Shown here: in pieces, positions 25,440 to 42,888 of the stretch
Numbering within the stretch: position 1 is the first letter of the stretch
How the letters are laid out: every line of letters starts with the position of its first letter
From: Pseudomonas versuta
GTDB taxonomy: Bacteria; Pseudomonadota; Gammaproteobacteria; Pseudomonadales; Pseudomonadaceae
Length of the DNA stretch: 64,000 nt
Direction: 5' to 3'
NCBI RefSeq assembly: GCF_001294575.1
Contig: NZ_CP012676.1
Coordinates: 3,880,001 to 3,944,000, forward strand
Made by a program: the position numbers and the translations under genes
Notes under the pieces: generated by a model
Databases searched by the model: none
What the model saw: the letters and a program-made list of their open reading frames with translations, nothing else
Told to the model about the DNA's origin: nothing

Positions 25440-25494
25440 AACTTACTCGCGATGTATATACCTCAGAAGGTATTAATACTTTCGCGAGTAAGTT
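25440..25494. repeat. Nested inverted repeat between the DUF4136 pair and tadG
   Basis: Outer arms AACTTACTCGCGA (25440-25452) and TCGCGAGTAAGTT (25482-25494) are perfect over 13 bp. Inside is a second stem ATACCT/AGGTAT. It starts 21 bp after the DUF4136 stop and could act as a transcription terminator, although no T tract follows directly. It overlaps the proposed PprB site of tadG. The rest of the 242-bp gap is the presumed tadG promoter region. Confidence 0.6.
25467..25482 (+). promoter_or_regulatory. Candidate PprB operator upstream of tadG
   Basis: AAGGTATTAATACTTT is a 16-bp palindrome with one mismatch, 178 bp before the tadG ATG. The core ATTAATACYTT recurs before pprB and flp. A symmetrical site fits a NarL/LuxR-type dimer such as PprB. 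Assignment is inference. Confidence 0.45.
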
Positions 25495-25660
25495 AGTTAC
25501 GCGACGGTCTTTCTTTTAATTTACTGATGACTTTTGATCAGTTGTTCACATCACGCCTATAAAACTGGCAACTGGCCAGCGCCTTGATCACTTTTTGGCT
25601 ACACTCGCTGAAACTTTGGAGAGTTAGCGCTGGACACAGTTCCAGCATCAGGAGTGCTCG

Positions 25661-27646
25661 ATGTCTCCCCGTCTACGCAGTATCGGTTTCAATAGCCCAC
25701 AGCAGCAACAAGGTGCAATCGGTTTAATGGCCGCTGTCACCCTCGGCGTGGTGCTGCTTTTCATGTTGTTGGTGATCGACAGCGGACGGCTGTACCTGGA
25801 ACAACGCAAGTTGCAACGGGTAGCGGACATGGCCGTGCTGGAAGCGGTCAGCCGGGGAGGGAGTTGTACCAGTGGCACTGCCGTAACCTACGTCAATGAA
25901 AGCGCCACGCGAAACGGCTTCACTCCCGGGGCGGTGCAAAAAATAACACCCACCTGCGGCACCCTTGTGACGGGCAGCGACAGCCTGCGTACCTTCAAAC
26001 TGGACCCCAGCCAAACCAATGCTATCCGCGTTATCGCCACCACCACTGTCCCCACAAGCGTGGCCGGGGGACTATGGAGCTTGTTTGCCAAGGATGGATT
26101 TAATCTTAATACCCAGTTGACGGCGAGTGCGGTAGGCGCTGCCCCTAAGGGGTTGCTGGCTCAACTTACGATTCGAAGTACTGCCGTTACGATAGACTCT
26201 TCAAAGTCTCAGATACTCAATGCGGTATGGGGCGGACTGCTTGGGGGATCGCTCAATCTAAGCGTTGCAGGCTGGCAAGGCCTGGTCGACAGCAAAATAA
26301 ACTTGCTGAGTTATTTGGATCAATTAGCTATCGACTTGAATATTAATGCCGGTAGTTACACAGACGTCCTGAACACCAAAGTACAACTCACAAAACTTAT
26401 CGACACAGCAATCAAAGTACTCACCGCAAATGGCAATACAGCCAATGTTGCAGTAGACGGACTCCTCGGGCTTAAAGCCGCGGTGGGCAGTGTCCAGGTA
26501 AAACTGGCAGACATATTGAAACTGCAGACAGGTACGAACAGCGCAGGGCTGGACACTAATTTGAACGTCTTCCAGTTAGTGGAGGCTTTTGTCCAGCTCG
26601 CCAACATTAACAACGGTGTCGTAGCGACAGTCCCCCTGAACGTCCCGGGTGTGATCAATGGCGTGGTTAAATTAAAAGTCATAGAGCCGCCTCAACTTTC
26701 GGCCATTGGTGACCCGGCAAAAGCCAAGGCTAACCCTACCGATCCTGCATCCAGAATCTACGTGCGTACGGCACAAGTCCGGGCAGGCGTTAGTATCGCT
26801 CTGCCACTTCTTGATACTCCGGCCGTCGAATCAGTTCTCACTAACCTGGTCGGCCCCCTGACCGATACGTTAAATAGTTTACTAAGCCTCAATCTTGCCG
26901 CCACACTTAAATCAGTCCTGTGCGCTGTAGCCTTTCCTTGCAAGCAAACAGACCTCAAAGTTCTGCCTACCGCATCGATCAACGTTATCCTTGAGGTCGC
27001 CAGCGCCAACTCATATGTCACGGACTACTCATGCCCCAGTACGACCACAAAAACCCTGACAGTCGCGAATAACGCAGCTTTGGTAAAGGTCAAATTTGGC
27101 AGTATTGATATGACCAATGCCTTCTCTTCATCGAACGATGTTACCGTCAAACCTTTACCTATTATTGATATTGGCTCGGTCACCTGCTCCGGGCTAATCC
27201 TATTTAAAGTATGTGATCCTAAAACCCGTGTGCCCTTTTATGGTGGCGGAGTGGGACTGATGGTAGACACCAGTATCGGCAGTCTTAGCGCTCCCTATCT
27301 GACTCATACTTACAATCAACCACCCGAAATAAAACAGGACCCGCTTTTTTCCCCGGTATCATCAACAAACCTGGTAGGCAGTCTTAAAACGACACTGCAA
27401 GGTATCCAGTTAGCGGTCTATCAACCCACAGGCACCAGCGCTTTGGGCAGTTTGCTTGTTAATACCGGGAACATACTGAGCGGTTTAATTACAGCCATCA
27501 GTAATATCATCGGTACTTTACTGAGCCCGATTGTCGACCCGCTGCTGAATGGCATCCTTAATTTACTAGGGATAACGATCGACAATGTCGACGTTGGCGC
27601 CAACCTCTCCTGCGGCCAGGGTGGCCGCGCCCAACTGGTGCTTTGA
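25661..27646 (+). CDS. tadG: Tad pilus assembly protein TadG
   Basis: A 661-residue protein with a TadE/G-type N-terminus (QQQQGAIGLMAAVTLGVVLLFMLLVIDSGRLYLEQRKLQRVADMA, a prepilin-like hydrophobic helix at about residues 18-45 without a leader peptide glycine plus E5 pattern of the pilin type). The long periplasmic region is rich in Val/Leu/Asn/Thr, has a few Cys, and ends LLGITIDNVDVGANLSCGQGG. TadG proteins are part of the Flp/Tad pilus machine and probably anchor it in the periplasm. The gene is on the opposite strand from the main tad operon and has its own promoter. Its base composition is visibly more AT-rich than that of its neighbours. GGAG lies upstream of the ATG. Confidence 0.82.
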   Translation: MSPRLRSIGFNSPQQQQGAIGLMAAVTLGVVLLFMLLVIDSGRLYLEQRKLQRVADMAVLEAVSRGGSCTSGTAVTYVNESATRNGFTPGAVQKITPTCGTLVTGSDSLRTFKLDPSQTNAIRVIATTTVPTSVAGGLWSLFAKDGFNLNTQLTASAVGAAPKGLLAQLTIRSTAVTIDSSKSQILNAVWGGLLGGSLNLSVAGWQGLVDSKINLLSYLDQLAIDLNINAGSYTDVLNTKVQLTKLIDTAIKVLTANGNTANVAVDGLLGLKAAVGSVQVKLADILKLQTGTNSAGLDTNLNVFQLVEAFVQLANINNGVVATVPLNVPGVINGVVKLKVIEPPQLSAIGDPAKAKANPTDPASRIYVRTAQVRAGVSIALPLLDTPAVESVLTNLVGPLTDTLNSLLSLNLAATLKSVLCAVAFPCKQTDLKVLPTASINVILEVASANSYVTDYSCPSTTTKTLTVANNAALVKVKFGSIDMTNAFSSSNDVTVKPLPIIDIGSVTCSGLILFKVCDPKTRVPFYGGGVGLMVDTSIGSLSAPYLTHTYNQPPEIKQDPLFSPVSSTNLVGSLKTTLQGIQLAVYQPTGTSALGSLLVNTGNILSGLITAISNIIGTLLSPIVDPLLNGILNLLGITIDNVDVGANLSCGQGGRAQLVL

Positions 27647-27660
27647 CCTGCTTACGACTC

Positions 27661-27751
27661 CTGTAGTCGCTGACGAGGAACGAGGCTGCGAGGGGTTACG
27701 CAGCAGCCTTGTTATCAGGCGGGTCCTGCAGACCCCCGCCAGCAGCTACAG
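27661..27751. repeat. REP-like element between tadG and pprA
   Basis: Bounded by CTGTAGTCGCTG and CAGCTACAG in inverse orientation, with an internal hairpin (AACGAGGCTGC/GCAGCCTTGTT) and a second (GCGGGTC/GACCCCCGC). The outer sequence belongs to the TGTAGTCGCTGmCGAGG REP family also seen at 52779. It sits between convergent genes and likely terminates both. Confidence 0.65.
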
Positions 27752-27763
27752 ATATGCCCGGCG

Positions 27764-30520
27764 TTACTCTTCAACCACCGGCAATTCCACGCAAAACCGG
27801 GCCCCGGGCCCGGTATTGCTCACGCTCAACCGTCCGCCCATGTTGTCGATAATGCCGTAGCTAACCGACAACCCAAGGCCGGTACCAATACCGATGGGCT
27901 TGGTGGTAAAGAACGGTTCGAAGATACGCTCCAGCAACCGCGGGTCGATGCCGTCGCCATTGTCCTGTACCCACAGCCGTACACAGTTGCCGTCTGTTTC
28001 GGCGCTCAGGGTTATCAGGGGCTGGAAGTCGCGATCTGTCTCGCGCTTGCTCAACAAGGCATCACGCGCATTGACCAGCAGGTTGATCAACACTTGCTCC
28101 AACTGGTCTGAATGACCGCGCACCTGCACGCTACACGCCAGCCCCTCGGCGTGGATCTCTACGCCTTTACAACGCAGACCTTCGCCCAGCAGGGCCAAAG
28201 TACCTTCCAGTGCCTGCACCGGGTTGAAGACCTGCTGCTCGATTTCGGAGCGCCGACCGAACACGCGCATATGGTCGACCACTCGCGCAGCGCGCTGGAT
28301 TTGCGAATCGATACGGGTGAGTTTTTCCTTCAGGTAATCAATCTGTACATCGCCGTTACTCAGGCGTTTGAGTACGTTGACGATAGCCATGCGCATCACA
28401 TTCAGCGGCTGGTTGATCTCATGCGCCAGCCCGGTGGCCATTTCGCCAAGCGTGGCCATTTTCGCGCCGTGGGTCAGTTGCTGTTGCGAGCGCCGTACCT
28501 CGGTATTGTCACGACCTACCGCCTGGACTTCGAGCAGTTGGCCCTGAGCGTCAAACACCCCCCGATCAGACCAGACCCACCACGCATGCTCACGGCCAGG
28601 CAGTTGCAGGCTGATTTCAGCCGTACTCACCGGGAACTCCGGGCTCAAGCTGGCAATACGCCGTTCAAACAACTCGCGCTGTTCGGCTGAGAGCCAGTCG
28701 CCCAGGTTGATCCCCGGCAGTAACTCAGGGGCGCACTCCAGATAATTGGCCAGCGGTCGGTTGCCGAAGGTCAGGGTCAAGTCTGGCAAGTAGCGGCAAA
28801 TCATCGCCGGGGAGTCTTCGACCAGAATCCGGTAACGCTCCTCACTGTGTTTAACCCGCTCGGCCGCTTCGGTGGTCTCGGTAATGTCCAGCCACAACCC
28901 TACTGCCTCAACGGGCAGCCCCAGGTCGTCGCGTAATAATTTGGCCTCGTCCAGCAACCAGTGATAGTCGCCAGCGCGGTCACGCAGACGGAAACGGCTG
29001 CGGGTGCTGCCTTCACGCAGCAACTGGCGCGTACGCTCGAAGTACTGCTCGCGGTCATCGGGGTGGATCCTGTCGATCAAGGCCGCCCCTGCACAGTCGT
29101 CCAGGCTCCAGCCCAGCAAAGGTTGCAAGCTGTCGCTGAAAAATGCCGGCAGCAATGCACCTTCGTCGTAGCGCTGCACGTAGATCACGGCAGGTGAACT
29201 GGCGATCAGGTTGTCCAGTCGCGCATGGGCGGCGGCGGCCTGCAGTTGCTGGTTTTTGATGTCGCTGATATCGAGCATGTAACCCACTGTGCGCCGGCTT
29301 GCACCTGTTCCCAGCACCTGGCCCTGAATCCGGTACCACCGGGTCGGTTGCGTATTTTGGGGCTGGTGCAGCCGCGCGCACAGCATCAGCGTTTTGCCAT
29401 GCTCCAGTAACGCATTGAAACCGCTGCTCAGTTCATCCCGATCCACGGGATGAAACAGCGCCAGCCACGCTTCACGGGTCAACGCCGAAGGTTCCAGCTG
29501 CGGCAATAAACTTGCGCTCAATTGCGGCGCCAGCTGCAATTGCCGGGAAGGCTGCAACCACTCCCACCACCCCGTACCCAACAGTTCCTGCAGCGCTTGC
29601 ATGCGCTCCTTTTGTTGTTCGTGTTGCTGCTCACGCAGACGATCCTGCAGCGGCCCGGCCATTGCCGCACAGACCAGCAACCAGTCGCTTTCGCTCATCA
29701 GCGATGGGTGCTGCGTGGCCGGGTAAAAACCCAGCAGCAACCACACGGACTGCCCTTGCTGGTCGCAGTAAGGCACCAGCCAACCGTCGGCATTGCCAAA
29801 CAGACTATTGAGCAAAGGGTTTCGGGTTCTCTCGACATCGGCGTTTATGGATCGGGGCCGTTTGGCATCCACACCATCCAGGACCTCGCCCAGGGTTTGT
29901 CCTGTGGTCCACAGCGCCGGCGCATCAAACCCGTGATACGCGCTGTATAGACGCCAACCCAGTGGCGTACCACTGCGCACGGCCAGTGCCACGCAGGGCA
30001 CACGCCATTGCTGCGCTACACGACACAGCGCCTCATGCATCACCTCAGGCAAGCGGGCGGCGCTGCACTGACGCAACTGTTCACCGATGCTCAGGGCCAG
30101 TTGCGCACATTGCTCGCGGCTGCCGGCTTGCTGGCTGTCGCGTAATAAATCGCCGATATCCAGCAGTTGTAATAACCAGCAGTCAGCCTGCGGCTGTACC
30201 CAGCCACGGGTGTGTAGCACGTTCAGTCCGGGGCCTTGAAAATCCAGATCAAGACAGTGTCCGACCCAGTCCGCCGGTCCCCCTTCCAGCGCCAGCGTGC
30301 TGCCCGACACCAAATAGTCCAGCAGCAGACGCGGTGTAGCGTCACCAGCATCGCGCCCCAGGCCATGGCGCTGCAGGCCGCTAGCATCAATAACCCGCCC
30401 CTGCTGATCGAGCAGCAGTTGCATGCACCCATCGGTGCGTGACTGCAAACCAGAAGATCCGGGCAGCTGCTCGGTGGCCCGCCCCGTCAGGCGCCTAAAG
30501 AGCTTTTCACCCTGGATCAA
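27764..30520 (-). CDS. pprA: PAS-domain sensor histidine kinase PprA
   Basis: A 918-residue soluble-looking histidine kinase. The N-terminal 300 residues form a GAF-like sensor region. Three PAS/PAC segments follow: one around 330-420, one with RIHPDDREQYFERTRQLL, and one starting YRILVEDSPAMICRYLPD. Then come HisKA (MATGLAHEINQPLNVMRMAI, His phosphoacceptor in AHEINQP) and HATPase with N box INLLVNARDAL, DNGDGID, FEPFFTTK and GTGLGLS. No clear membrane segment is present. It matches PprA, partner of PprB in control of the Tad locus. The best start is a TTG that overlaps the tadF stop (TTGA), implying coupling; no strong Shine-Dalgarno is seen and the true start could be further in. Confidence 0.86.
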   Translation of the reverse strand: MIQGEKLFRRLTGRATEQLPGSSGLQSRTDGCMQLLLDQQGRVIDASGLQRHGLGRDAGDATPRLLLDYLVSGSTLALEGGPADWVGHCLDLDFQGPGLNVLHTRGWVQPQADCWLLQLLDIGDLLRDSQQAGSREQCAQLALSIGEQLRQCSAARLPEVMHEALCRVAQQWRVPCVALAVRSGTPLGWRLYSAYHGFDAPALWTTGQTLGEVLDGVDAKRPRSINADVERTRNPLLNSLFGNADGWLVPYCDQQGQSVWLLLGFYPATQHPSLMSESDWLLVCAAMAGPLQDRLREQQHEQQKERMQALQELLGTGWWEWLQPSRQLQLAPQLSASLLPQLEPSALTREAWLALFHPVDRDELSSGFNALLEHGKTLMLCARLHQPQNTQPTRWYRIQGQVLGTGASRRTVGYMLDISDIKNQQLQAAAAHARLDNLIASSPAVIYVQRYDEGALLPAFFSDSLQPLLGWSLDDCAGAALIDRIHPDDREQYFERTRQLLREGSTRSRFRLRDRAGDYHWLLDEAKLLRDDLGLPVEAVGLWLDITETTEAAERVKHSEERYRILVEDSPAMICRYLPDLTLTFGNRPLANYLECAPELLPGINLGDWLSAEQRELFERRIASLSPEFPVSTAEISLQLPGREHAWWVWSDRGVFDAQGQLLEVQAVGRDNTEVRRSQQQLTHGAKMATLGEMATGLAHEINQPLNVMRMAIVNVLKRLSNGDVQIDYLKEKLTRIDSQIQRAARVVDHMRVFGRRSEIEQQVFNPVQALEGTLALLGEGLRCKGVEIHAEGLACSVQVRGHSDQLEQVLINLLVNARDALLSKRETDRDFQPLITLSAETDGNCVRLWVQDNGDGIDPRLLERIFEPFFTTKPIGIGTGLGLSVSYGIIDNMGGRLSVSNTGPGARFCVELPVVEE

Positions 30521-30960
30521 AATTTCATACTCGATTGCGCGGTCAAGGTAGTCGGCAGTTGAGGCACGCTGACAGTGCCCAACGTGAGTACCGGCATAAG
30601 GGTTGCCAACGCAGCGGACGGAAGAGAGACAGTGGCCGTTAGAACACCCGCAACGGGGTCATAAGATGCGGTTTTGACCAGACTTGGGGCCACGGCTGTA
30701 GGTACCCAGCGCAGTTTTTCGTCCAGCACGCCTTTGGCCACTGACTCGACTGCAGTTTTATAGGCCGCCGCCGTAAGCGTCGGATCAACCGCAACACTGC
30801 GCCGCACCGCCTCGGCTGTGGAGTTATTAAATGATTGCACCAGCAACAACGGCAGGCTGTAACTGAGCACGCCATAAAGAACAGCAAAAAAAATCACGAA
30901 CACCAACGCGAATTCAATTGCGGCGGCACCTTTTTGTTTCTTGGGAAGGCCTATTTTCAT
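30517..30960 (-). CDS. tadF: Tad pseudopilin TadF
   Basis: A 147-residue TadE/TadF-type pseudopilin. The N-terminus MKIGLPKKQKGAAAIEFALVF has the processing site KG|AAAIEFAL (Glu at +5), followed by a hydrophobic helix VIFFAVLYGVLSYSLPLLLVQ and a 110-residue periplasmic domain. It would be cut by the prepilin peptidase FppA encoded divergently next to it and contribute to Flp pilus assembly. The ATG at 30960 is preferred over an upstream in-frame start 13 codons earlier because of the pseudopilin leader. The end overlaps the pprA start. Confidence 0.86.
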   Translation of the reverse strand: MKIGLPKKQKGAAAIEFALVFVIFFAVLYGVLSYSLPLLLVQSFNNSTAEAVRRSVAVDPTLTAAAYKTAVESVAKGVLDEKLRWVPTAVAPSLVKTASYDPVAGVLTATVSLPSAALATLMPVLTLGTVSVPQLPTTLTAQSSMKF

Positions 30961-31031
30961 GACTGCGTCCACCCTGACAATCAAAAGTAATATCATCATA
31001 GAATCATCAGTAAAAAAGGGATGTTAATTAC

Positions 31032-31505
31032 GTGATTCACTTATCTGTTGTATTTATTTGGCTCTTTGTTTGCGCCACACAAGACCTTATCCAGCGCCAT
31101 ATTTCCAACATTCTGACCTTCGGCGGGGCGGCACTGGCGCTGCTGTATCTGCTCTGGACCGGTGACACCTGGCTGGGCGCCAGCGCTGAAGAAGGCGGCT
31201 GGGCACTACTGATCGCGTTGCTGTTGACCCTCCCCGGCTACGCCCTGAACAAGCTGGGCGCCGGTGATGTGAAGCTAATGATAGCCTTGGCCCTGGCAAC
31301 CGATCGTCTGACAATTCTGGGCACAGTGATTGGATCCAGTTTGTGTGCAGGGCTGTGGTGGTTAATAGCGTCAAAAATACTGCCTTTGTTGAATCAATGG
31401 TTTAACTCAGATGAATTTAAGGTGAAACGTTCAATGTCAAAAAAGCTTCCTTATGCACCTTTTTTGTTAGCCGGTTTTACCCTGACAACAATGCTACTTG
31501 GATAG
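31032..31505 (+). CDS. fppA: Prepilin peptidase FppA (TadV/CpaA)
   Basis: A 157-residue A24 aspartic prepilin peptidase of the short TadV type. The two catalytic aspartates are Asp18 in CATQDLIQRHISN and the Asp of the GxGD motif LGAGDVKLMIALAL (near residue 80). About four to five membrane segments. It processes Flp, TadF and other pseudopilins at the inner membrane. Starts with GTG after AGGGATG. Divergent from tadF with a 71-bp spacer and 117 bp before pprB, as in the P. aeruginosa locus. Confidence 0.88.
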   Translation: MIHLSVVFIWLFVCATQDLIQRHISNILTFGGAALALLYLLWTGDTWLGASAEEGGWALLIALLLTLPGYALNKLGAGDVKLMIALALATDRLTILGTVIGSSLCAGLWWLIASKILPLLNQWFNSDEFKVKRSMSKKLPYAPFLLAGFTLTTMLLG

Positions 31506-31513
31506 TCAGTTTG

Positions 31514-31528
31514 AAGGATTAATACCTT
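31514..31528 (+). promoter_or_regulatory. Candidate PprB operator upstream of pprB
   Basis: AAGGATTAATACCTT, an imperfect dyad 94 bp before the pprB start, shares ATTAATACYTT with sites before tadG and flp. It would allow autoregulation. Inference from recurrence. Confidence 0.45.
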
Positions 31529-31622
31529 GTACATAGTCGTAAAGTGGGTCTACGTTTAAATCAGTCACGTAAAACGTGTGGACCAAGATGTCCCAGATTG
31601 GTTTACCAGGATGGAGAACCGT

Positions 31623-32414
31623 GTGAATACACACCCCGCCCTTATAAAAATTCTCGTCGTCGATGATCAGCCCTTGATTGTCGAAGAACTCTGCGAGTTT
31701 CTGGAAAGCAGTGGCTACCGTTGCGTGCCTTGCCAGACAAGCCGTGAAGCCATCAGTGCGTTTATTGCCGACCCACTGATAGGTCTAGTGCTGTGCGACT
31801 TGCACATGCCGGACATGAATGGCATTGAACTCACCCAGCATTTGCAAAAAGTTGCCGGTAAGCAGCGGGTCTTTGAAAGCATTTTGCTGACCGGCCGCGC
31901 CGACAAACAGGATGTGATCAAAGCCTTGCGTATCGGTATCGCCGATTACTACCAGAAGCCGGTCGATCTGAACGAACTGCTTGAGGGCATCCAGCGCCAG
32001 GAACAGATCCTGCGCGAACAGCACAAGAGCAACCAACTGGGGCAACTGAACCAGAAGTTGCAATACCTGGCCGAGTCCATTGACGACCTCTATCAGGATA
32101 TGGAATACGCCCGTCGCCCTCCCCAGTCCAGCGCTGAAAACCCGAACAATCCCTCTTCGAACGACAGTACCTGTCCTCAGATCCCGAGCATTTTCAAACA
32201 GCTGTCACCGCGCCAGCTGGACGTCGCCAAACTGGTGAGCAAAGGCCAGACCAACTACCAGATAGCCTGCGATCTGGGCATCACTGAAAACACCGTAAAA
32301 CTCTACGTGTCGCAAGTGCTGCGCCTCACCCACATGAACAATCGCACCCAGCTGGCTCTCGCCCTGTCCCCCAACGCCTCAGTCCAGCATGGCCGGCAAA
32401 CGGCTGGCAGCTAA
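31623..32414 (+). CDS. pprB: NarL/LuxR-type response regulator PprB
   Basis: A 263-residue response regulator. The receiver domain (residues 8-125) has Asp14/Asp15 in LVVDDQPLI, the phosphoacceptor Asp59 in LCDLHMPDMNG, and Lys in YYQKPVD. A linker with coiled-coil character (QLGQLNQKLQYLAESIDDLYQD) joins it to a LuxR-type HTH (LSPRQLDVAKLVSKGQTNYQIACDLGITENTVKLYVSQVL). It is the activator of the Flp/Tad locus in P. aeruginosa, phosphorylated by PprA. The GTG at 31623 is chosen because GGAG lies six bases upstream and MNTHPALIKILVVDD matches the family start; two in-frame codons upstream are less likely. Confidence 0.88.
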   Translation: MNTHPALIKILVVDDQPLIVEELCEFLESSGYRCVPCQTSREAISAFIADPLIGLVLCDLHMPDMNGIELTQHLQKVAGKQRVFESILLTGRADKQDVIKALRIGIADYYQKPVDLNELLEGIQRQEQILREQHKSNQLGQLNQKLQYLAESIDDLYQDMEYARRPPQSSAENPNNPSSNDSTCPQIPSIFKQLSPRQLDVAKLVSKGQTNYQIACDLGITENTVKLYVSQVLRLTHMNNRTQLALALSPNASVQHGRQTAGS

Positions 32415-32475
32415 GCCCCCAACAAGCACGACCCCATCCCCCTACCCTCACACCGGGCGGGAGATGGCGTCACTA

Positions 32476-32742
32476 TCAATCCGACTTGGCTTTGCCGCCC
32501 TCATCCTGCTTGTAGTACTCAGGGATGGGGTGGGTGTAGCTGTCCAGCCAGCGCTGCAGGCTGCGCTCACGCTCCTGGGAAGTGGCCACCTGGTGTATCG
32601 GTGACCGGGCTTGCCCGCTGACCTGAAGCTGCAACCAGTTTTCGGTGTCCTGCTGGGATCTGGACACGGGTCCCGGCTCGATGGCAAAGGCGCCAAACGG
32701 CAGGACGGCTAACAACACACCTACTCGAATATACAAATTCAC
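32476..32742 (-). CDS. DUF3613 exported protein of the Tad locus
   Basis: An 88-residue protein with a signal peptide (MNLYIRVGVLLAVLPFGAFA) and a short mature region containing WLQLQVSGQARSP and RSLQRWLDSYTHPIPEYY, the pattern of the DUF3613 family that sits beside tadD in Pseudomonas. The start is GTG at 32742 because GGAGG lies six bases before it; an in-frame ATG six codons earlier overlaps the tadD stop. It is the last gene of the tad operon. Function unknown; conserved linkage implies a role in pilus assembly. Confidence 0.78.
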   Translation of the reverse strand: MNLYIRVGVLLAVLPFGAFAIEPGPVSRSQQDTENWLQLQVSGQARSPIHQVATSQERERSLQRWLDSYTHPIPEYYKQDEGGKAKSD

Positions 32743-32759
32743 GGCACACCTCCAACGCA

Positions 32760-33452
32760 TTATTTGATCGCAGCCACTTGATTGCTGGCTGTCTTGGCTT
32801 GGGTTTTAAGGGCTTGCGCCCTTGCCTGGGCATCACCCACTTGGGCGGGGGTCAATTCGGCACGACTGGCAAGCTCGGCTGCCTGGCTCCACTGGTCCTG
32901 ATAAATCAGCAAGGTCACCAGATTCAACGCGGCTAGCGAGTCCCCCTGCTTAAGCTCCAGAGAGGTCAAAAACTCAAAGCGCGCTTCGTCCAGCCGTAAT
33001 TGATTGAGATACACCACGCCCAGGTCATTGCGGATTTTTTCATCGGTCGGTGCCATACGTGCAGCCCGTTCCAGATGGGTCGTTGCCAGCGCGTTATCGC
33101 CCCGCCCGGCGGCCAGCTGACCCAGGCCATGTTCACCTTCCGCCGCCAGGCAAGTGCCTAGCAGCCCTTTGTACAAAGGTTCGGCTTCACTGCGGCCCAG
33201 TTGCCGATAGATTCGGGCCTTGCGCAATTGCACCTGCGCGTAGCGCTCCGGCAGACCTTGCAAGTTGGCCAGGCTGGCGTGCAGTTTGCCTTCCTTGGCC
33301 ATGTCGTCAGCCAGGTTCATGGACAGTTCCTGGTCGCTACTCAACTTGGCGCAACTGCTGCCAGTCAGGCCCGCCCATGGCGAATTACCCTGGCCCCCTG
33401 TCGCACAACCGCCCAACATCAGCAACGCACACGCGGCAATGACAGCTTTCAT
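32760..33452 (-). CDS. tadD: Tad lipoprotein TadD (TPR protein)
   Basis: A 230-residue outer-membrane lipoprotein: signal peptide MKAVIAACALLMLGGCATGG with lipobox LGGC, then a run of tetratricopeptide-like helices (residues about 60-215, e.g. ATTHLERAARMAPTDEKIRNDLGVVYL and SLAALNLVTLLIYQDQWSQAAELASRA). TadD acts as a pilotin-like factor for the RcpA secretin. The ATG at 33452 follows AGGAG by seven bases. Its end touches the next gene's alternate start, consistent with a tight operon. Confidence 0.85.
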   Translation of the reverse strand: MKAVIAACALLMLGGCATGGQGNSPWAGLTGSSCAKLSSDQELSMNLADDMAKEGKLHASLANLQGLPERYAQVQLRKARIYRQLGRSEAEPLYKGLLGTCLAAEGEHGLGQLAAGRGDNALATTHLERAARMAPTDEKIRNDLGVVYLNQLRLDEARFEFLTSLELKQGDSLAALNLVTLLIYQDQWSQAAELASRAELTPAQVGDAQARAQALKTQAKTASNQVAAIK

Positions 33453-33466
33453 ATTCATACTCCTGA

Positions 33467-34351
33467 TCACGAGCCAAAGGCCCGTGCAATAGCCATAAAA
33501 CTCGGGCCGGCCAATACAATCATCAGCGCCGGAAACAGAAAGACCATCATCACCACCGACATCTTGGCCGACATTTTCGAGATGTATTCCTCCATTCGCG
33601 TCAGGCGACGGTCATCGAGCAGCTCTTTAAGTGCTTGTAACGATTTCATCGCGCCACCGCCCTGCTGAATCAATTGCTGAAGAATCACGCAGGTGTCATT
33701 GAATTCATCTACATCCAGCAAGGCTGCGGTTTTGCTCAACTCCTGGCTCAACTCCAGTCCAGAGTCCACCCGGACCAGCATCACTCGCAGTTCCCCTGTA
33801 AGTACTGGCAGCAATTGCCGCCCCTCCTGGCTCAGCACCCGCAGCGCCTGCTCGACCGCCATGCCCGACTCAAACAGAATGCGCAGTAAAGGGATGAAGG
33901 TTGAAACCTCTACAGCCACTTCTTGCTGACGTTGTTTCGCCACGTAGGCCAACATCCGCTTGGGAATCAGATACCCCACGGCAAGCGCAAACAGCAGCAC
34001 AATCAGTAGATTCCCCGACCCGGGAAAGAACAGCTCGTGCCCCAGAAAAATCAGCCCGGCAAACGCTACCGGGGTCCCGATCTGGAAGGCGGCAAACAAT
34101 GAACGCTGGCTGGCTGTGCGCCAGCCAACGCGATTGAGCAAGAGCTGGGTTTCACTGTCCATCGAGACCGACCGCTGGCCGAACTTGCTGTTACCCACCG
34201 CCCGCATCCAGAGGCTTAACGTGCCAGGGCCGGTCTTGTCACCTTCCAGGCGCTGCATAACGCGCTGCTGGCTCAGCCGCTCCTGAATCACATGGTTAAT
34301 CAACAGCCCCAGGGCACCCAACAATAAAATCAAACAAATCAGCAAGGCCAT
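33467..34351 (-). CDS. tadC: Tad inner-membrane platform protein TadC
   Basis: A 294-residue type II/IV secretion F-domain protein (T2SSF). Membrane segments: N-terminal MALLICLILLLGALGLLIN, a central pair around GTPVAFAGLIFLGHELFF and GNLLIVLLFALAVGYLI, and the C-terminal MSVVMMVFLFPALMIVLAGP. The F domain includes STFIPLLRILFESGMAVEQALRVL. It forms the inner-membrane platform with TadB around the TadA motor. The ATG at 34351 lies one base after the tadB stop (TGAcATG), so translation is coupled; longer in-frame starts run into tadB. Confidence 0.88.
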   Translation of the reverse strand: MALLICLILLLGALGLLINHVIQERLSQQRVMQRLEGDKTGPGTLSLWMRAVGNSKFGQRSVSMDSETQLLLNRVGWRTASQRSLFAAFQIGTPVAFAGLIFLGHELFFPGSGNLLIVLLFALAVGYLIPKRMLAYVAKQRQQEVAVEVSTFIPLLRILFESGMAVEQALRVLSQEGRQLLPVLTGELRVMLVRVDSGLELSQELSKTAALLDVDEFNDTCVILQQLIQQGGGAMKSLQALKELLDDRRLTRMEEYISKMSAKMSVVMMVFLFPALMIVLAGPSFMAIARAFGS

Positions 34352-34352
34352 G

Positions 34353-35237
34353 TCATATGCTCCGCACCATGCGCCATAGTCCCAGGCAACCAATCGCCTG
34401 CAATGCAACGGCGGTAAGCAGCATGTGCTGACCGCTCGGATCGCTCCACACCTTGGTCAGGTAACTGGGGTTGGTCAGCATGAAATAACCACCCACTAAT
34501 AACGGCAACACCGCCAGAACCATCGCAGTGACACGTGTTTCACCGGTCATTGCCTTGAGCTTGCGAGCACCTTGATCACGCTCACGAATCAGCAGGATCA
34601 GGTTTTCCAGCAGTTCACTGGCGTTGCCGCCGTAGCGATGGTTGACCTTCAAGCCAAGGGCGAACATACGAAATTCATCGCGCTCATACAGCTCGGCAAA
34701 ATCTTCCACCGCCTCGGGCAAACTCACGCCCAACTGCACATTCCTCGAGACCCGGCTGATGCTGCTTTTAAGCGGATCGCTGGACGACTCAATCGCATGC
34801 AGCACCGCATCGGACAAGGTGCGTCCCGCTTTCAGGCTACGCACGCAGTGATCGAGCAACTGCGGCAATTGCTCCACCATGCGCCGTACCCGACGCTGAT
34901 AACGCCAACTGACATACAGCCTCAAAAGCAATGGCGGCAGGACCACAAAGATCAAGAAATACGCCCAGCCTCCCAACAAGCCCGCCAATACCGCTACCAC
35001 GGCCCATATCCCCAACCACAAGCCAAGACGATCGGAAGGGCGGCCCAGACCTGCCTGCAAAAAGGCCCGGTCCAGCCACGCCACACTCAGGGGCTTCTGT
35101 GCAATTACCGGCTGACCTTCACCTAAGCGGTCCAGCACCCTGTTGGTGGCAGGGTCACGCAATGCGCGGTAGACAAGACTCAGCGACATCACAAACATCA
35201 AAAAGCTGATCAGAAAAAGTATCAAGGCCGGGATCAT
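34353..35237 (-). CDS. tadB: Tad inner-membrane platform protein TadB
   Basis: A 294-residue T2SSF-domain membrane protein, paralogous to TadC. N-terminal helix MIPALILFLISFLMFVMSLSL, a hydrophobic pair at about residues 73-105 (LGLWLGIWAVVAVLAGLLGGWAYFLIFVVLPPLLL), the F domain QLPQLLDHCVRSLKAGRTLSDAVLHAIESS, and two C-terminal helices. It acts with TadC as the assembly platform for Flp pilin. GAGGTG precedes the ATG, nine bases after the tadA stop. Confidence 0.88.
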   Translation of the reverse strand: MIPALILFLISFLMFVMSLSLVYRALRDPATNRVLDRLGEGQPVIAQKPLSVAWLDRAFLQAGLGRPSDRLGLWLGIWAVVAVLAGLLGGWAYFLIFVVLPPLLLRLYVSWRYQRRVRRMVEQLPQLLDHCVRSLKAGRTLSDAVLHAIESSSDPLKSSISRVSRNVQLGVSLPEAVEDFAELYERDEFRMFALGLKVNHRYGGNASELLENLILLIRERDQGARKLKAMTGETRVTAMVLAVLPLLVGGYFMLTNPSYLTKVWSDPSGQHMLLTAVALQAIGCLGLWRMVRSI

Positions 35238-35246
35238 GGGAGCACC

Positions 35247-36521
35247 TCAGCCGTTTGCATTCAAAATGGGGTCGCGACGCAACTTGTCGCCTGCCGGGTT
35301 CAAGGCTTCGCGCATAAAACCAAAGCCCGTACGCTTATCCAGCCGGAACAGGGTGTTGGTGACATAAACATCGTCCCGTACTCCCACCACCTCCAGCACC
35401 TCACTGACGCAGCGTCGACCATCCGGCATACGCGTCAGCTGGATAATGACGTCCAGTGCGGCGCAGATCATCTGGCGCAAGGTTTTCTCCGCCACCGTGC
35501 GCCCGGTCAGGCCCACCAGAGTTTCCAGACGCAGCAACGCATCTTGCGCAGTGTTGGCATGCACGGTACTCATCGAACCATCGTGGCCAGTGTTCATCGC
35601 GGTCAGCACATCAAGCACTTCAACACCGCGAATTTCGCCAAGGATGATGCGGTCCGGACGCATCCGCAGGGCGTTGCGAATCAGATCGCTGGATTTGACT
35701 TCACCGTGCCCTTCAGCATTGGGCGGCCGGGTTTCAAGACGCACCACGTGGGGGTGGCCGAGCTGCAGCTCCGCCACGTCTTCGATGGTGACCAGACGTT
35801 CATGGGGGTTGATCAACTGACTCAAAATGTTGAGCAACGTGGTTTTACCGGTACCGGTACCGCCGCTGATCAAGATATTGCAGCGCTTGCCAACCGCCTC
35901 CTGGAAAAACTCAAAGATCGGCTGATCAATGGTTTGCATCGCGACCAGGTCGCTGCTTTTAAGCATGTCCTTGCGAAATTTCCGGATCGACAGGCAAGGA
36001 CCGTCCAAGGCAATGGGCGGAATGATCGCGTTGACCCGGCTGCCGTCAGGCATACGCGCATCGACCATCGGCGAGGACTCGTCCAGGCGCCGGCCCAGCG
36101 GCGCGAGAATACGCTGCATCACCCGCTCTACGTGATGATCATCGATAAAGCGCAGGTCACTTTGACTGAGCAGGCCTTCGCGCTCGACAAATACCCGGTG
36201 CGGTCCGTTAACCAGAATCTCAGTCACCGCCGGGTCGCGCAGCAGAACTTCAAGCGGGCCGAAACCGGTCAGTTCGTCGACGATTTCTTCAGCCAGGCGT
36301 TCCATCTCGTAACGCGAGATCGCCAGATGCAGGCGCGACACGTATTCCGCGACCCGCTCGATGACAAATTGCGACAGGACCTGGCGCGAATCTTCCAGCA
36401 GGTTTTTCCCGGTTTCCTCGATGGCATCAATGATGTAACGGTGCAGCACCAGTTTCAGGCCGTCATGGTCGGCGCGACCGTCCTTGTACAGGCCCGAGCC
36501 GAACAACTGTTCATTGGTCAT
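35247..36521 (-). CDS. tadA: Tad pilus assembly ATPase TadA (CpaF)
   Basis: A 424-residue secretion ATPase of the CpaF/TadA family. Walker A is GGTGTGKTTLLN (around residue 220), followed by the Asp box VTIEDVAELQLGHPHVVRLETRP, Walker B-like RMRPDRIILGEIRG and the His box GHDGSMSTVHANT. The N-terminal domain has LTGFGPLEVLLRDPAVTEILVNGP. It hydrolyses ATP on the cytoplasmic face to drive pilus assembly (and, in some species, retraction). The ATG overlaps the tadZ stop by four bases. Confidence 0.92.
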   Translation of the reverse strand: MTNEQLFGSGLYKDGRADHDGLKLVLHRYIIDAIEETGKNLLEDSRQVLSQFVIERVAEYVSRLHLAISRYEMERLAEEIVDELTGFGPLEVLLRDPAVTEILVNGPHRVFVEREGLLSQSDLRFIDDHHVERVMQRILAPLGRRLDESSPMVDARMPDGSRVNAIIPPIALDGPCLSIRKFRKDMLKSSDLVAMQTIDQPIFEFFQEAVGKRCNILISGGTGTGKTTLLNILSQLINPHERLVTIEDVAELQLGHPHVVRLETRPPNAEGHGEVKSSDLIRNALRMRPDRIILGEIRGVEVLDVLTAMNTGHDGSMSTVHANTAQDALLRLETLVGLTGRTVAEKTLRQMICAALDVIIQLTRMPDGRRCVSEVLEVVGVRDDVYVTNTLFRLDKRTGFGFMREALNPAGDKLRRDPILNANG

Positions 36522-37717
36522 TTAGACCCCCACAGGCGGTTGAGCCAACTGTCCGACTTGCCCTGCGAGCGACCCGGCAGTTCTGAGCGCAAGGCCAGCC
36601 GCTCGCCGAGTTTTTTCAAACCCAGGCTCAGGGGTTCTCGCGGGCCCAGTTCGAAAAGTGTCACGGCCTGATTTTTGGCATTGATGCGCAATTCCGGGCT
36701 CGCCGGGAGTGTGGCCAGCACTGGCAAGCCAAAGCTTTTGGCCAGTGCATCGGCATCGGGGGCCACGCCACGCAGGTAGCGATCAACCAGCAGCCCCGCG
36801 TGTTCGAGCTTCATTCCCTTAGTGCGCCAGACGCCAAGCACGTCCAAGTTGCGCCGGCAATCGAGTACGTTTTGATCGGTGTAAAACAGCAACTTGTCGC
36901 AATGGCTGACAAAGGTGCGCAGCGCTTCGCTGTCAGGCTGGCCCGTCAGGTTGACCACAATATGCTGGAAGTGCTGACGCAAGGCGCTGAGCAACATATA
37001 CAACTCGGCGGCGCTGGTTTGCTCCAGCGGTTCGTCGTTGTCGCTATGGACCAGGATTCGTAAACCTTCAGGGGTCTTGGTAAATGCACTGTCGATCAAG
37101 GTGCTGTCCAGCCGCCGTAAATGGCGCAGGGCATCTCCAAAAAAAAACGAGCTCTCCAGGCCCAACTGCGTCAGACCGTCGCCACGGGGCAAGCCCAGAT
37201 CCAGGAACAGGGTTTTTTGATCCTGCTTTTGCACCACCAGCCCCAGGTGGCAGGCGAGCAATGCACCGTCAGCATTGCACTGGGCGCTGAACAGTACGGT
37301 CAGCCCGCCCAGCTCTGCGTTAGGTGTGACCGGCGGCAAGCGTTTACTCAAGCGCCGTACCAGACCGGCCACCTCGCTGGAACGCGAACCGTAGGCGACA
37401 AAATCCCGAGCCCCGGCGCGCATCGCATTGAGCACCAACTGGTTATCCATGCCATCGCCCAGGGCAACCACGGCCAACATTGGCTTGGCCTCAAGCAGCC
37501 CCTCGATCAATGCGCACTGAGACACGACTTTCTCTCGGTCCAGCCCGACAAAAACCAGACCAGCGAAAGTTACGTCAATCAATGCCAACAACTCATCCAG
37601 ACTGCTCGTGCCTACGCCCACGACCTGGCCCAGGGGCGCCAATGCGCCTTGCAGCCACTCAAGATCAGTGTTGTTGCGCGTCAGCGCGAGAAATGTCTGG
37701 CTCAGGCTTTGGCTCAT
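36518..37717 (-). CDS. tadZ: Tad localisation protein TadZ (CpaE)
   Basis: A 399-residue protein with an N-terminal atypical receiver-like domain (residues 10-130, LTRNNTDLEWLQGALAPLGQ and LVFVGLDREKVVSQ) and a C-terminal ParA/MinD-like domain with a deviant Walker motif (GLTVLFSAQCNADGALLACHLGLV replaces the usual KGGVGKT). TadZ/CpaE proteins position the Tad machine at the pole. The receiver lacks the usual phosphoacceptor motif. Overlaps rcpA by four bases and tadA by four bases. Confidence 0.86.
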   Translation of the reverse strand: MSQSLSQTFLALTRNNTDLEWLQGALAPLGQVVGVGTSSLDELLALIDVTFAGLVFVGLDREKVVSQCALIEGLLEAKPMLAVVALGDGMDNQLVLNAMRAGARDFVAYGSRSSEVAGLVRRLSKRLPPVTPNAELGGLTVLFSAQCNADGALLACHLGLVVQKQDQKTLFLDLGLPRGDGLTQLGLESSFFFGDALRHLRRLDSTLIDSAFTKTPEGLRILVHSDNDEPLEQTSAAELYMLLSALRQHFQHIVVNLTGQPDSEALRTFVSHCDKLLFYTDQNVLDCRRNLDVLGVWRTKGMKLEHAGLLVDRYLRGVAPDADALAKSFGLPVLATLPASPELRINAKNQAVTLFELGPREPLSLGLKKLGERLALRSELPGRSQGKSDSWLNRLWGSK

Positions 37718-38940
37718 TGGGATAGCCCGCTACGGGTATTGAACTTACCGTTTTCAAGGAAATACAGTCGATACCAGTTAGGGTCGTAATTGCGCAGTTT
37801 TTCACCAGGCAGGGCTGGTAACTGCGCATTGGCCGCCAGTGGTTGAACCAGATGCGGCGTCACAATCATCAACAGTTCTTTTTCTTCGCTGGTGGTGTTG
37901 GAGTCGCGGAAAAAGGCGCCAAGAACGGGGATGTCCCCCAGCCCCGGGAATTTGTTGACCTGAGCACTGTTGCGCGAGCTGATCAAGCCGCTGATGACAA
38001 AGCTCTCGCCATCGGCCAGGGAAATACTGGTATCGGTACGGCGAACATTAAGGCCAGGGACTAATGTCCCGGCGATATTCACCGCGTTGGTGTAGTCCAG
38101 CTCGCTCACTTCGGGGGCGACTTTGAGCATGATGCGGTCACGCCCGACCACGGTCGGCGTCAACGTAAGACGGATACCGAACTCCTTGTACTCAATCGAC
38201 ACGTTGTCACTGCCGCTGCTCGGTACCGGGATAGGGACTTCACCGCCGGCGAGAAAGGTCGCACTCTGGCCGCTTAACGCCACCAGACTCGGACGCGCCA
38301 GGGTGTAGGCAAAACCGCTGCCCTCAAGTGCGTTAATCAACGCTTTGACCCGGCCACCGCCGAAGCCAATGTTGAAATACTTGCCGTTAGCTACCGGGCC
38401 ACCGGTAATCACGTTTTCCGCATTGGAAATGAACGATCCGGGCGAGCCAAACAAAAAGTCTTTACCCATGCCAAAGATCGAAGTACTGGCTTCCTGCATC
38501 TTGGTGCGATTGACTTCGACAAAGCGAATATCGGTTTGCACCTGGCTGGGCAACGTCGGATCTTCAGAAGGCAATATTGAAACGCTGGTATAGCTGGTGG
38601 CGGCTTTGCCCTTGACGAACACCATGCTCTGGCGCGGTGATTTCGAACAGGCGGTCCAGACCATCAGGCTGGTGGTGCCCGGCGCAACGCCTGTGAGCAA
38701 GAAGGCGTTGCTGCCATTGGCGTGAACATCCGCAACAGTAGGATCCCCCACTGCAATGCGGGTAATGCTGACTGGCGAATCCAGTGCTTGCTGGGCCCCT
38801 TGGGCCACTTCCAGTACCGAGGGTAACTGACCGAGAGCAGCGCAATTGTTTGAAGCAGCCAAGGCCATTTCAAAGGGCAAGCTGCTTAAAATCAGCGTCC
38901 AGACAGCTCGTTTATACAGCGCAACGCCAGGATTTCTCAT
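37714..38940 (-). CDS. rcpA: Outer-membrane secretin RcpA (CpaC)
   Basis: A 408-residue type II/III secretin of the RcpA/CpaC family. Signal peptide-like N-terminus (TLILSSLPFEMALAA), a pilus-specific N domain (SVLEVAQGAQQALDSPVSITRIAVGDPTVADV), a BON-like region (DIRFVEVNRTKMQEASTSIFG) and the secretin core (FLAGGEVPIPVPSSGSDNVSIEYKEFGIRLTLTPTV ... FPGLGDIPVLGAFFRD ... ELLMIVTPHLVQPL). It forms the outer-membrane pore for the Flp pilus; TadD is its likely pilotin. GGGA precedes the ATG. Confidence 0.9.
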   Translation of the reverse strand: MRNPGVALYKRAVWTLILSSLPFEMALAASNNCAALGQLPSVLEVAQGAQQALDSPVSITRIAVGDPTVADVHANGSNAFLLTGVAPGTTSLMVWTACSKSPRQSMVFVKGKAATSYTSVSILPSEDPTLPSQVQTDIRFVEVNRTKMQEASTSIFGMGKDFLFGSPGSFISNAENVITGGPVANGKYFNIGFGGGRVKALINALEGSGFAYTLARPSLVALSGQSATFLAGGEVPIPVPSSGSDNVSIEYKEFGIRLTLTPTVVGRDRIMLKVAPEVSELDYTNAVNIAGTLVPGLNVRRTDTSISLADGESFVISGLISSRNSAQVNKFPGLGDIPVLGAFFRDSNTTSEEKELLMIVTPHLVQPLAANAQLPALPGEKLRNYDPNWYRLYFLENGKFNTRSGLSQ

Positions 38941-38967
38941 GCTGTGCTTCCCTTGCAGATCGTATTT

Positions 38968-39903
38968 TTATTGAGCCGGCTGTTGCGTGGTTTGGTTGCC
39001 GCGAATGATTTCAATCCCGCGCACCCTTTGAACCCCGGGGCTACCCGCCACAGGTGTGCGCACCGGGCTGGCCATGGCTAACTGGTTGAACTGGTAAAGA
39101 CTGCGTTTGGCGTTCTCAAGGTTGCCTGGAGCATCCTTCTCACCCGCCCAGTACTTGCTCAAACGCTGCTCCTGGGCGCTGCGCACGGCCAGACGCAAGG
39201 TGCCGGCCTGAGTGGCCAGCATCAGTTGATTGATCAAAGGCTCTGGAACTGCCAGCACCGCCGTGCGCGCACCGACACGGCGCTGCGCTTGTTTGAGGGC
39301 TTCTTCGGCATTCAGCGGTTCACTGGCCAGTTGACCGTCGCTGGTCATGCCCAACTCATCACCCACGCTCAGCACCCGTACTGCCGGCAACACTGTTTGC
39401 GCCGACTGCTGCGGATTGGCCGTGTCCTGACGCAAAAACAGCAAGATATCGACGTAGTCACCAGGCGTTAGCTGCCCTGCTGCACCGGTCACTTCATCGA
39501 TGGCCACTGCCAGTGCACGTTCATCAGGGCGAATCATGCGAGCAAGAGGGCCGCCGATTTCAAAGCTTTGCTTGGTCAGCCAGGTACCCGCACTCAACGC
39601 TCGCCATGGGGTAAGGCCAACCGCCTGATCGATAGCCGTAAGGCTGCCGGCGGGTGCGGTCTTGAGTTTTTCCAGGGTCAAGTCTTCGGCGGTCAGGGCC
39701 ACATGCGGGGGAACATCACGGACCAATACCACCACTGGCTGTCGGGTCTGATCCTCAACCGAGGCGACACTTTGCTCCACCACCTGCGTCACCGGAACTT
39801 CAGCTACCGGCTGCTGACGAGTCAATACCAACCCCCAATAACCGGCCGCAATAGCCCCGATAAACAAAATGGCCGCCAGTACTAAACTGCGTCGATTGTT
39901 CAT
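38968..39903 (-). CDS. rcpC: Tad assembly protein RcpC (CpaB)
   Basis: A 311-residue CpaB/RcpC protein: one N-terminal membrane helix (MNNRRSLVLAAILFIGAIAAGYWGLVL), then a SAF-like domain (VLVRDVPPHVALTAEDLTLEKL; GAAGQLTPGDYVDILLFLRQD) and a C-terminal extension (RVRGIEIIRGNQTTQQPAQ). It interacts with the secretin and peptidoglycan. First gene of the rcpC-rcpA-tadZABCD-DUF3613 operon. ATG 39903 follows GGGAG by seven bases; a TTG two codons earlier is discounted. Confidence 0.86.
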   Translation of the reverse strand: MNNRRSLVLAAILFIGAIAAGYWGLVLTRQQPVAEVPVTQVVEQSVASVEDQTRQPVVVLVRDVPPHVALTAEDLTLEKLKTAPAGSLTAIDQAVGLTPWRALSAGTWLTKQSFEIGGPLARMIRPDERALAVAIDEVTGAAGQLTPGDYVDILLFLRQDTANPQQSAQTVLPAVRVLSVGDELGMTSDGQLASEPLNAEEALKQAQRRVGARTAVLAVPEPLINQLMLATQAGTLRLAVRSAQEQRLSKYWAGEKDAPGNLENAKRSLYQFNQLAMASPVRTPVAGSPGVQRVRGIEIIRGNQTTQQPAQ

Positions 39904-40240
39904 TAGCAAACTCCCTTTACCACAACGTAGCGCAGATAAAAAAAATCATTCGCAATCAGGCAGCCATAACCCAATAACGCTGTTTGAACCATTTCGCTAT
40001 TTGAACGTAGCGCAGGTAAATCAAAATGCCATTAGTGACTTTAAAAATCTCTATTTAATTTTGAATTGTTTGATTTACCACACATTTTTTTTACACGCAT
40101 CATTTGGATTAATACTTTGTGATTAGTGCTTTTTTACAGTTGCCTTAAACTGAATTATTGCCAATGCTGTAATGGCAGAAGGAAATCACGCAATATAATT
40201 GTTAAGCGGTGCCCGACCCGGTGCACGAAGGAGAAGTCAG
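39904..40240. promoter_or_regulatory. Divergent rcpC/flp control region with 17-bp direct repeat
   Basis: This 337-bp AT-rich gap has no gene. AACGTAGCGCAGrTAAA occurs at 39924-39940 and again at 40004-40020, exactly 80 bp apart with one mismatch; both copies are nearer rcpC. A good -10 box TATAAT is at 40194-40199 for flp, with no matching -35, which suggests an activator-dependent promoter. The flp message would have a leader of about 35 nt ending in GAAGGAG. Confidence 0.55.
40104..40118 (+). promoter_or_regulatory. Candidate PprB operator upstream of flp
   Basis: TTGGATTAATACTTT shares the 11-bp core ATTAATACYTT with sites before tadG and pprB. It lies 122 bp before the flp start and about 75 bp before the TATAAT box, a position suited to an activator. 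It could serve both flp and the divergent rcpC operon. Confidence 0.45.
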
Positions 40241-40465
40241 ATGTTTTTAAATACTGTTCTTAAAGTGTATGTACCGACGCAGGTATTCCTGACTCGCCAG
40301 GTCAAATTATTTGCACAGCGCACGGAGGGCGCTTCAGGTATTGAATATGCGCTTATTGCAGGAATGGTTGCAGTGGCAATTGTAACTTTTGTAGCCCCGA
40401 TCAAAACCGAGGTCATTGCAATATTCACATCGATTAAAACTGCACTAACCAGTGCCGCAACTTAA
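40241..40465 (+). CDS. flp: Flp type IVb major pilin
   Basis: A 74-residue prepilin. The leader ends in RTEG and the mature protein starts ASGIEYALIAGMVAVAIVTF, which places Glu at +5 and Tyr at +6 as required for FppA processing. The mature pilin is 44 residues: one hydrophobic helix plus a short KTEVIAIFTSIKTALTSAAT tail. Flp subunits form the thin adhesive Tad pilus. The leader (30 residues) is longer than in many Flp proteins. GAAGGAG precedes the ATG at 40241. The next gene starts 5 bp after the stop. Confidence 0.92.
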   Translation: MFLNTVLKVYVPTQVFLTRQVKLFAQRTEGASGIEYALIAGMVAVAIVTFVAPIKTEVIAIFTSIKTALTSAAT

Positions 40466-42699: not shown

Positions 42700-42799
42700 A
42701 TGAGACTCCATGCTCAACAACCGCGGCACAACTAAACCAGGGGCAACGCATCATAGTGTGGCGAAGCTACCCGGCATTAACCTTACAATCCTGCAAATG

Positions 42800-42833
42800 A
42801 AAAAAGACGAGAGATTCATTTGAATCTCTCGTC
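42800..42833 (-). terminator. Intrinsic terminator after the glycine-rich lipoprotein gene
   Basis: On the minus strand GACGAGAGATTCA-aa-TGAATCTCTCGTC is followed by a run of T (42800-42805 on the plus strand is A-rich). The 13-bp stem ends 56 bp after the gene's stop and separates it from the transporter gene. Confidence 0.88.
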
Positions 42834-42888
42834 TCAACCAAGCGTAGGCGCTGTAGGTAAGGCCGTCGAACCGGCCAGGTGCAATTAG

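Follow-up and report, generated by a model that had tools for sequence, protein, structure and literature searches.

Predicted PprB-binding half-sites in the tad/flp locus of Pseudomonas versuta and its relatives

INTRODUCTION

In a published study of Pseudomonas aeruginosa, the response regulator PprB is reported to activate flp and rcpC and to be able to repress its own gene, which depends on RpoS (PMC6821963). A putative PprB site, GGCTAATAC, is mapped there in the pprB promoter from an earlier predicted consensus and lies directly after the RpoS site; overproduced PprB cut the activity of this promoter to 20%, and mutation of GGCTAATAC relieved the repression. A second study reports PprB binding at the bapA promoter (electrophoretic mobility shift assay) and at the cupE promoter (data not shown) (PMC3510237). 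Here, we analyse a 64 000-nucleotide stretch of the Pseudomonas versuta genome (contig NZ_CP012676.1, positions 3,880,001 to 3,944,000; hereafter the window, whose coordinates are used in the feature lists) that carries a Flp/Tad locus of the Pseudomonas tad/flp/pprAB type, close to those of P. fragi and P. psychrophila, and in which a short element with the core TAATAC stands upstream of flp, pprB, tadG and a gene for a collagen-like lipoprotein. Judged from sequence, these elements, called PprB boxes here, are very probably bound by PprB, a NarL/FixJ-type regulator whose gene belongs to the locus itself. Such sites are not new in kind, a PprB site having already been predicted and mutated in P. 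aeruginosa; what is new is the predicted lipoprotein target. A limited literature search, which is no proof of absence, found neither work on a PprB box outside P. aeruginosa nor any that connects a collagen-like protein to Tad in this genus.

RESULTS AND DISCUSSION

Four sites with the core TAATAC

25467 to 25482, plus strand: candidate tadG box, AAGGTATTAATACTTT, in which ATTAATACTTT is invariant in 13 aligned carriers
25661 to 27646, plus strand: tadG (domain matches)
31514 to 31528, plus strand: candidate pprB box, AAGGATTAATACCTT, kept in part of the P. fragi clade
31623 to 32414, plus strand: pprB, response regulator with a LuxR/NarL-type helix-turn-helix (HTH), named from domains and locus order
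40104 to 40118, plus strand: predicted PprB box of flp, half-site 1, TTGGATTAATACTTT (genus-wide conservation)
40121 to 40129, plus strand: flp half-site 2, GATTAGTGC (ATTAATCC/ATTAATGC in relatives), a direct repeat 14 bp downstream of half-site 1
40241 to 40465, plus strand: flp pilin gene (domain matches)
42889 to 44703, minus strand: glycine-rich lipoprotein gene (Pfam Collagen_mid, PF15984; LAGC lipobox by eye)
44821 to 44831, minus strand: predicted PprB box, TTAATACCAAG, before the glycine-rich, collagen-like lipoprotein gene

A preliminary description of the window had placed a dyad with the core ATTAATACYTT before tadG, pprB and flp, and these three strings are indeed present on the coding strand, 178, 94 and 122 bp from the starts at 25661, 31623 and 40241, respectively. 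Its estimate that the 11-mer should hardly ever arise by chance is borne out, as the window gives four matches at three sites (the tadG copy matches on both strands), whereas 100 dinucleotide shuffles give none (mean 0.00). Across the whole host genome (5.15 Mb, single contig) there are six matches, four of them those of the window; the two other places are at 2208663, within an open reading frame (ORF), and at 1295742, ∼17 bp upstream of an ORF that, taken from its own sequence and not from a family call, would encode a transaldolase. The pattern TTAATACYWWG, composed after the sites had been seen, has five copies in the genome versus one in the reversed control: two lie in ORFs, and the only three intergenic copies, at pprB, flp and the lipoprotein gene, all fall within 13.3 kb. 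Off-locus exact matches at 13626 (inside a sensor-kinase-like ORF), 4082337 (inside an ORF) and 5039669 (past the L7/L12 gene, by position presumably in rpoB) were rejected as targets, as was that at 2208663. The tadG, pprB and flp sites are thus real and far from chance.

The dyad itself does not hold as a common feature. As a 16-mer, AAGG-n-ATTAAT-n-CCTT with up to three mismatches exceeds chance only modestly, matching 11 times versus a shuffle mean of 3.13 (standard deviation 2.27), a number reached by 1 of 100 shuffles, and the columns for AAGG carry little information at flp, and since this left flank is not conserved there the dyad was rejected as the shared unit. The palindrome described for the tadG copy stands, the copy being symmetric about ATTAAT, whereas flp and pprB share only its right half, TTAATAC-YTT. 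What these three have in common is an asymmetric half-site, YTAATAC-YTT. With the lipoprotein site included, the core TAATAC is present at all four, and a GG 1 bp before YTAATAC is found at flp and pprB (GGATTAATAC) but is missing at the lipoprotein gene (GCGTTAATAC) and tadG (GTATTAATAC). An inverted reading of the flp site, TTAATAC-N4-GTATTAA, fits some relatives only and was set aside. The operator unit would be YTAATAC with YTT or CAA behind it. It often comes in several copies, which are directly repeated at flp with a spacing of 14 bp and, at the lipoprotein gene of many relatives, inverted with a spacing of 42–43 bp.

The flp site is conserved throughout the genus

40134 to 40142, plus strand: TTACAGTTG, nearly invariant genus-wide, downstream of the flp sites (its loose form served as alignment anchor)
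40165 to 40173, plus strand: candidate extended −10 of flp, TGC-TGTAAT (judged by the consensus)

Loci were fetched by similarity to PprB, and 80 of the 288 found were kept; as these loci are related, counts over them are not independent. Usable rcpC–flp gaps in the orientation of the window were available from 63, the order was rearranged in 12, and 5 were not covered. In the resulting 64 regions (63 loci and the window), YTAATACTT with at most one mismatch occurs on the flp strand in 61, 45 of them exact, versus 9 on the other strand (1 exact) and 5 in reversed sequence (0 exact); it was not found in L027, L043 and L072. Nine of the 12 rearranged loci likewise show the element followed by TTACAGTTG, and the longer gaps of the remaining three (L061, L065 and L071) still contain a one-mismatch match to YTAATACTT. 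The conserved unit, GAYTAATACTTTGTGATTAATCCGTTCTTACAGTTG, consists of two half-sites as a direct repeat 14 bp apart and then TTACAGTTG, on which 62 of the 64 regions could be anchored. A weight matrix whose training set, 48 loci, excluded the P. fragi clade was tested on the 16 clade members, including the window, with 200 approximate dinucleotide shuffles per region; at flp all 16 pass (p ≤ 0.02). Genome-wide, 37 of 149 genus genomes carry the flp double site (at most one mismatch), with 1 match in the reversed control of all of them. These 37 are among the 101 genomes with a PprB homologue (E ≤ 1e-40), versus 0 of 48 without (Fisher 7e-8), so that the box co-occurs with pprB, with the reservation that kinship is ignored and that the contrast is confounded with the presence of tad. 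Of the 37 matches, 30 were fetched, and 28 of these lie between rcpC and flp; the other two (L107 and L111), outside tad, offered no convincing target and were discarded. In the window, the gap between rcpC and flp also holds AACGTAGCGCAGRTAAA twice as a direct repeat, at 39924–39940 and 40004–40020 (by eye).

A collagen-like lipoprotein gene as a predicted target

44777 to 44783, minus strand: candidate RpoS-like −10 of the lipoprotein gene, TCTACAC (judged by the consensus; seen in the window only)

A weaker form that had been noted before the lipoprotein gene, GTTAATACC near 44823, is real and occupies 44821–44831. Ten tad regions were fetched regardless of the presence of this site, nine of them from genomes with the flp double site; the lipoprotein gene was found in five, and all five carry TTAATACCAA upstream of it. 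In four of these five relatives, an inverted GTATTAR follows 42–43 bp further upstream, such that the two boxes are about four helical turns apart. The promoter in the window has kept the proximal box, and its upstream inverted partner is missing. The bipartite form of the relatives reads TGGTATTAR-N36-TTAATACCA, and the search pattern TGGTATTARN{25,40}TTAATACCA detects it in 21 of 249 genomes of the genus, with 0 in the reversed control. At the 21 loci chosen by this pattern, a lipoprotein match lies beside the site in all 21, with a suitable ATG ≤260 bp downstream in 20; 20 of the 21 sites span 54 bp, and in 18 the proximal box has TATATAA ahead of it (by eye). The evidence for this predicted site is stronger than that at pprB or tadG, and the site is among the best conserved; its conservation adds a collagen-like surface protein to the predicted regulon. 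In Pseudomonas other than P. aeruginosa, it seems more likely than not that the PprB regulon includes the collagen-like lipoprotein gene beside tad, that the unusual bipartite operator of many species may be bridged or looped, and that pilus and matrix protein are switched on together, the window retaining the proximal box only. A second weak form, GGTTAATGCC near 42775 before the TpsB gene, is present in the window but in none of the nine relatives with 400 bases upstream, and was rejected; 14 further rows of this comparison had 0–6 bases upstream and were not judgeable. Between the lipoprotein gene and tpsB, a hairpin with a T run at 42800–42835 resembles a terminator (by eye), so that the two genes may be separate units.

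The pprB copy and autoregulation

31549 to 31559, plus strand: candidate RpoS-like −10 of pprB, TCTACGTTTAA (judged by the consensus)

At pprB the box is far less constant. Six of the 16 clade members keep it, 2 of them at p ≤ 0.01, and two more have the degenerate TTAACACC; among 65 other loci the pprB promoter scores 1 at p ≤ 0.01 and 3 at p ≤ 0.05. The preliminary description had held that lack of conservation in related strains would undo its proposal; flp is clearly conserved, and such a lack is seen at pprB except in part of the clade and at tadG in loci that do not belong to it. General autoregulation of pprB through this box, which had also been proposed, cannot be upheld on these counts, and the case for pprB autoregulation through the box is weak. 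That the pprB copy is transient or owed to chance, with no general autoregulation through it, is a possibility to be taken seriously, though we lean away from it: the patchy counts and the element conserved genus-wide, TATGTACATAG-TCGGAAAGTA and not the box, speak for it, but where the copy is present it keeps a constant position, 59–61 bp before the ORF start used, and it has an extended stretch in common with the flp site. Moreover, the published arrangement of GGCTAATAC after the RpoS site recurs in 2 of 298 family genomes (G270 and G302), whose pprB promoters carry GGCTAATAC, albeit at another position. In P. aeruginosa the RpoS-like CTATATG comes before the box, which reportedly represses, whereas here the box would lie upstream of the candidate promoter, near −44 of TCTACGTTTAA; as it stands upstream and not after, this clade-level feature might act in activation or in repression. 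The pprB autoregulation of P. aeruginosa may not extend to these relatives. Most of the 80 loci share TATGTACATAG and TCGGAAAGTA before an RpoS-like −10; TATGTACATAG is in many of them the perfect palindrome CTATGTACATAG, and the window has TTGTACATAGTCGTAAAGT (region 31529–31559).

The tadG copy lies within a REP-type hairpin

25440 to 25494, no strand assigned: repetitive extragenic palindromic (REP)-type hairpin around the tadG box, with arms 25440–25452 and 25482–25494
25598 to 25605, plus strand: candidate RpoS-like −10 of tadG, GCTACACT (judged by the consensus)

In 13 of the 16 P. fragi clade members the tadG site occupies roughly one and the same position; it is missing in L009–L011. 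Matrix passes at tadG outside the clade (12 of 65, p ≤ 0.05) fall on the AAGGAGTGC ribosome site, and those between tadF and fppA (17 of 65) are mostly, as their offset suggests, inside tadE coding sequence; both sets were rejected. The surrounding hairpin folds as RNA with −37.2 kcal/mol (z −5.0), and its arms, CTTACTCGCGA/TCGCGAGTAAG, are of a type present at 71 places in the host genome, the tadG place included, as doublets of the form CTTRCTCGCGA...TCGCGAGYAAG. Among 13 aligned tadG sequences, chosen for carrying TTAATAC, 5 of 17 arm pairs have changed on both sides (5 is reached by 8 of 500 shuffles) and the covariation score of 0.228 is reached by 0 of 500, while the number of further pair types in the arms is not above that of shuffles (reached by 450 of 500). 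In our reading, the tadG copy is a box that a REP-type hairpin has captured or that forms a built-in part of one. The alternative, that it is no operator but simply the interior of such an intergenic hairpin, a DNA or RNA element, is doubtful but has substance, as the copy sits between repeat-type arms with a strong fold and covariation, and as the box, ∼135 bp from the tadG start placed by GCTACACT, would be far away for an activator. It is countered by ATTAATACTTT: this stretch matches the flp site exactly, is absent from every other REP of the host genome and is invariant across the 13 sequences while the arms vary, although part of it pairs in the hairpin and part of its invariance could come from that pairing. 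As in the REP and bacterial interspersed mosaic element palindromes of Pseudomonas, the arms are repeated, but the loop, with ATTAATACTTT in it, is peculiar to the tadG hairpin. As an operator the tadG box would be clade-specific.

PprB as the probable binder

A domain search of PprB gives a receiver (PF00072) and a LuxR-type HTH (PF00196), the architecture of a NarL/FixJ-type regulator, and NarL (1a04) tops its matches among sequences of solved structures through the C-terminal HTH part. Among the 25 NCBIfam models listed, none reached the cut-off for PprB and no model shown bore the name pprA or pprB. The nearest named relatives, from P. psychrophila, P. fragi and P. bubulae, are 84–85% identical. 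The HTH stretch ITENTVKLYVSQVLRL is identical in PprB of the window, in P. fluorescens PprB (L020), in PprB of G270 and in a paralogue in the window genome; therefore a shared target sequence is expected, which the paralogue could have in common too. The published P. aeruginosa site shares with the boxes described here the core TAATAC, the GG before it (flp and pprB), the identical HTH stretch and its place in the tad locus; it differs in belonging to another Pseudomonas clade, the sites here being at flp (in tandem), tadG and the lipoprotein gene. In G270, GGATTAATACTTT also stands directly upstream of tadF, and the direct repeat before flp, GACTAATCC...ACTAATGCC, is looser. Of the proposal that PprB binds the tad-locus sites, the locus-specific motif, its genus-wide presence at flp, the tadG copy within the clade and the match to the published site have thus stood, and the dyad, general autoregulation and the TpsB site have fallen away. 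The presence of the sites, the rarity of their near-exact copies and their conservation are direct observations; PprB as the binder, the promoter positions and the direction of control are what we infer.

Active or abundant PprB would bind upstream of the promoters and recruit RNA polymerase to the pilin and surface-protein genes. With starts placed by the −10 consensus, the flp and lipoprotein boxes would lie ∼55–70 bp upstream, the position of a class I activator, and activation at flp agrees with the regulation described in P. aeruginosa. The operators of NarL and NarP are similar in that short units are used in pairs, NarL being the top match of PprB among sequences of solved structures; their 7-2-7 arrangement of TACYYMT heptamers is not seen here, where the spacing is 14 bp direct or 42–43 bp inverted.

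Several observations, together with the patchiness of the pprB copy, pull in the other direction. With one mismatch, GRYTAATACYTT shows no genome-wide enrichment (73 versus 88 in the control), and therefore near-exact copies alone are informative. The contrast between genomes with and without PprB is weakened because a genome without tad has no flp promoter, and because some of the 101 genomes with a homologue have it without tad nearby; the PprB reading is tempered for this reason. The pattern RYTAATACYWW is at control level in G270 (10 versus 8) and G302 (7 versus 7), and no cupE or bapA gene was recognised by eye among its matches in these two genomes. Five of the 17 matches resemble 16S rRNA. 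In the P. aeruginosa study, the activity of the pprB promoter in a pprB mutant was like that of the wild type, repression appearing on overproduction only (PMC6821963).

The genome of the window also encodes the paralogue mentioned above, with 60–61% identity to PprB and the same HTH stretch (G000 C1:1031007–1031789; L116:9493–10275), and a further point on the opposing side is that real operators might be bound or shared by another regulator, most plausibly this one. We consider this improbable, as the gene of the paralogue is distant from the locus and adjoins an asparagine-synthase cluster, a scan upstream of it gave no YTAATAC, it is pprB that has the near-exact intergenic boxes close by, in the tad locus, and the published mutation links GGCTAATAC to PprB in P. 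aeruginosa (PMC6821963). That TAATAC is a plain −10 promoter hexamer, matching the consensus TATAAT at 4 of 6 positions, is most improbable, given that no conserved −35 was seen by eye at the right distance upstream of flp, that the TAATAC sites come in tandem or inverted multiples and that other −10 candidates lie downstream of them. PprB thus stays the favoured binder, and this gives a genus-wide, testable definition of the PprB box, suggests widely kept targets (flp and the collagen-like lipoprotein gene) as opposed to clade-specific ones (tadG and pprB) and, for Pseudomonas other than P. aeruginosa, predicts a surface protein as a new member of the co-regulated set.

Neighbouring genes and PprB homologues elsewhere

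27764 to 30520, minus strand: pprA, PAS-domain sensor kinase, named from domains and locus order
32760 to 39909, minus strand: rcpC-rcpA-tadZABCD block (domain matches)

The locus comprises tadG, pprA, a TadE-like gene, fppA, pprB, tadD-tadC-tadB-tadA-tadZ-rcpA-rcpC and flp, followed by an orphan receiver, TpsB and the glycine-rich lipoprotein with its Collagen_mid domain; we take the TadE-like gene to be tadF in P. aeruginosa naming. The PprB paralogue adjoins a cluster of asparagine-synthase, acetyltransferase-ATP-grasp and M42 peptidase genes. Five loci (L117, L120, L122, L129 and L130) carry PprB homologues without tad genes in the 17.5–19 kb fetched; a DUF4136 gene lies near the homologue in all five, and fppA in three.

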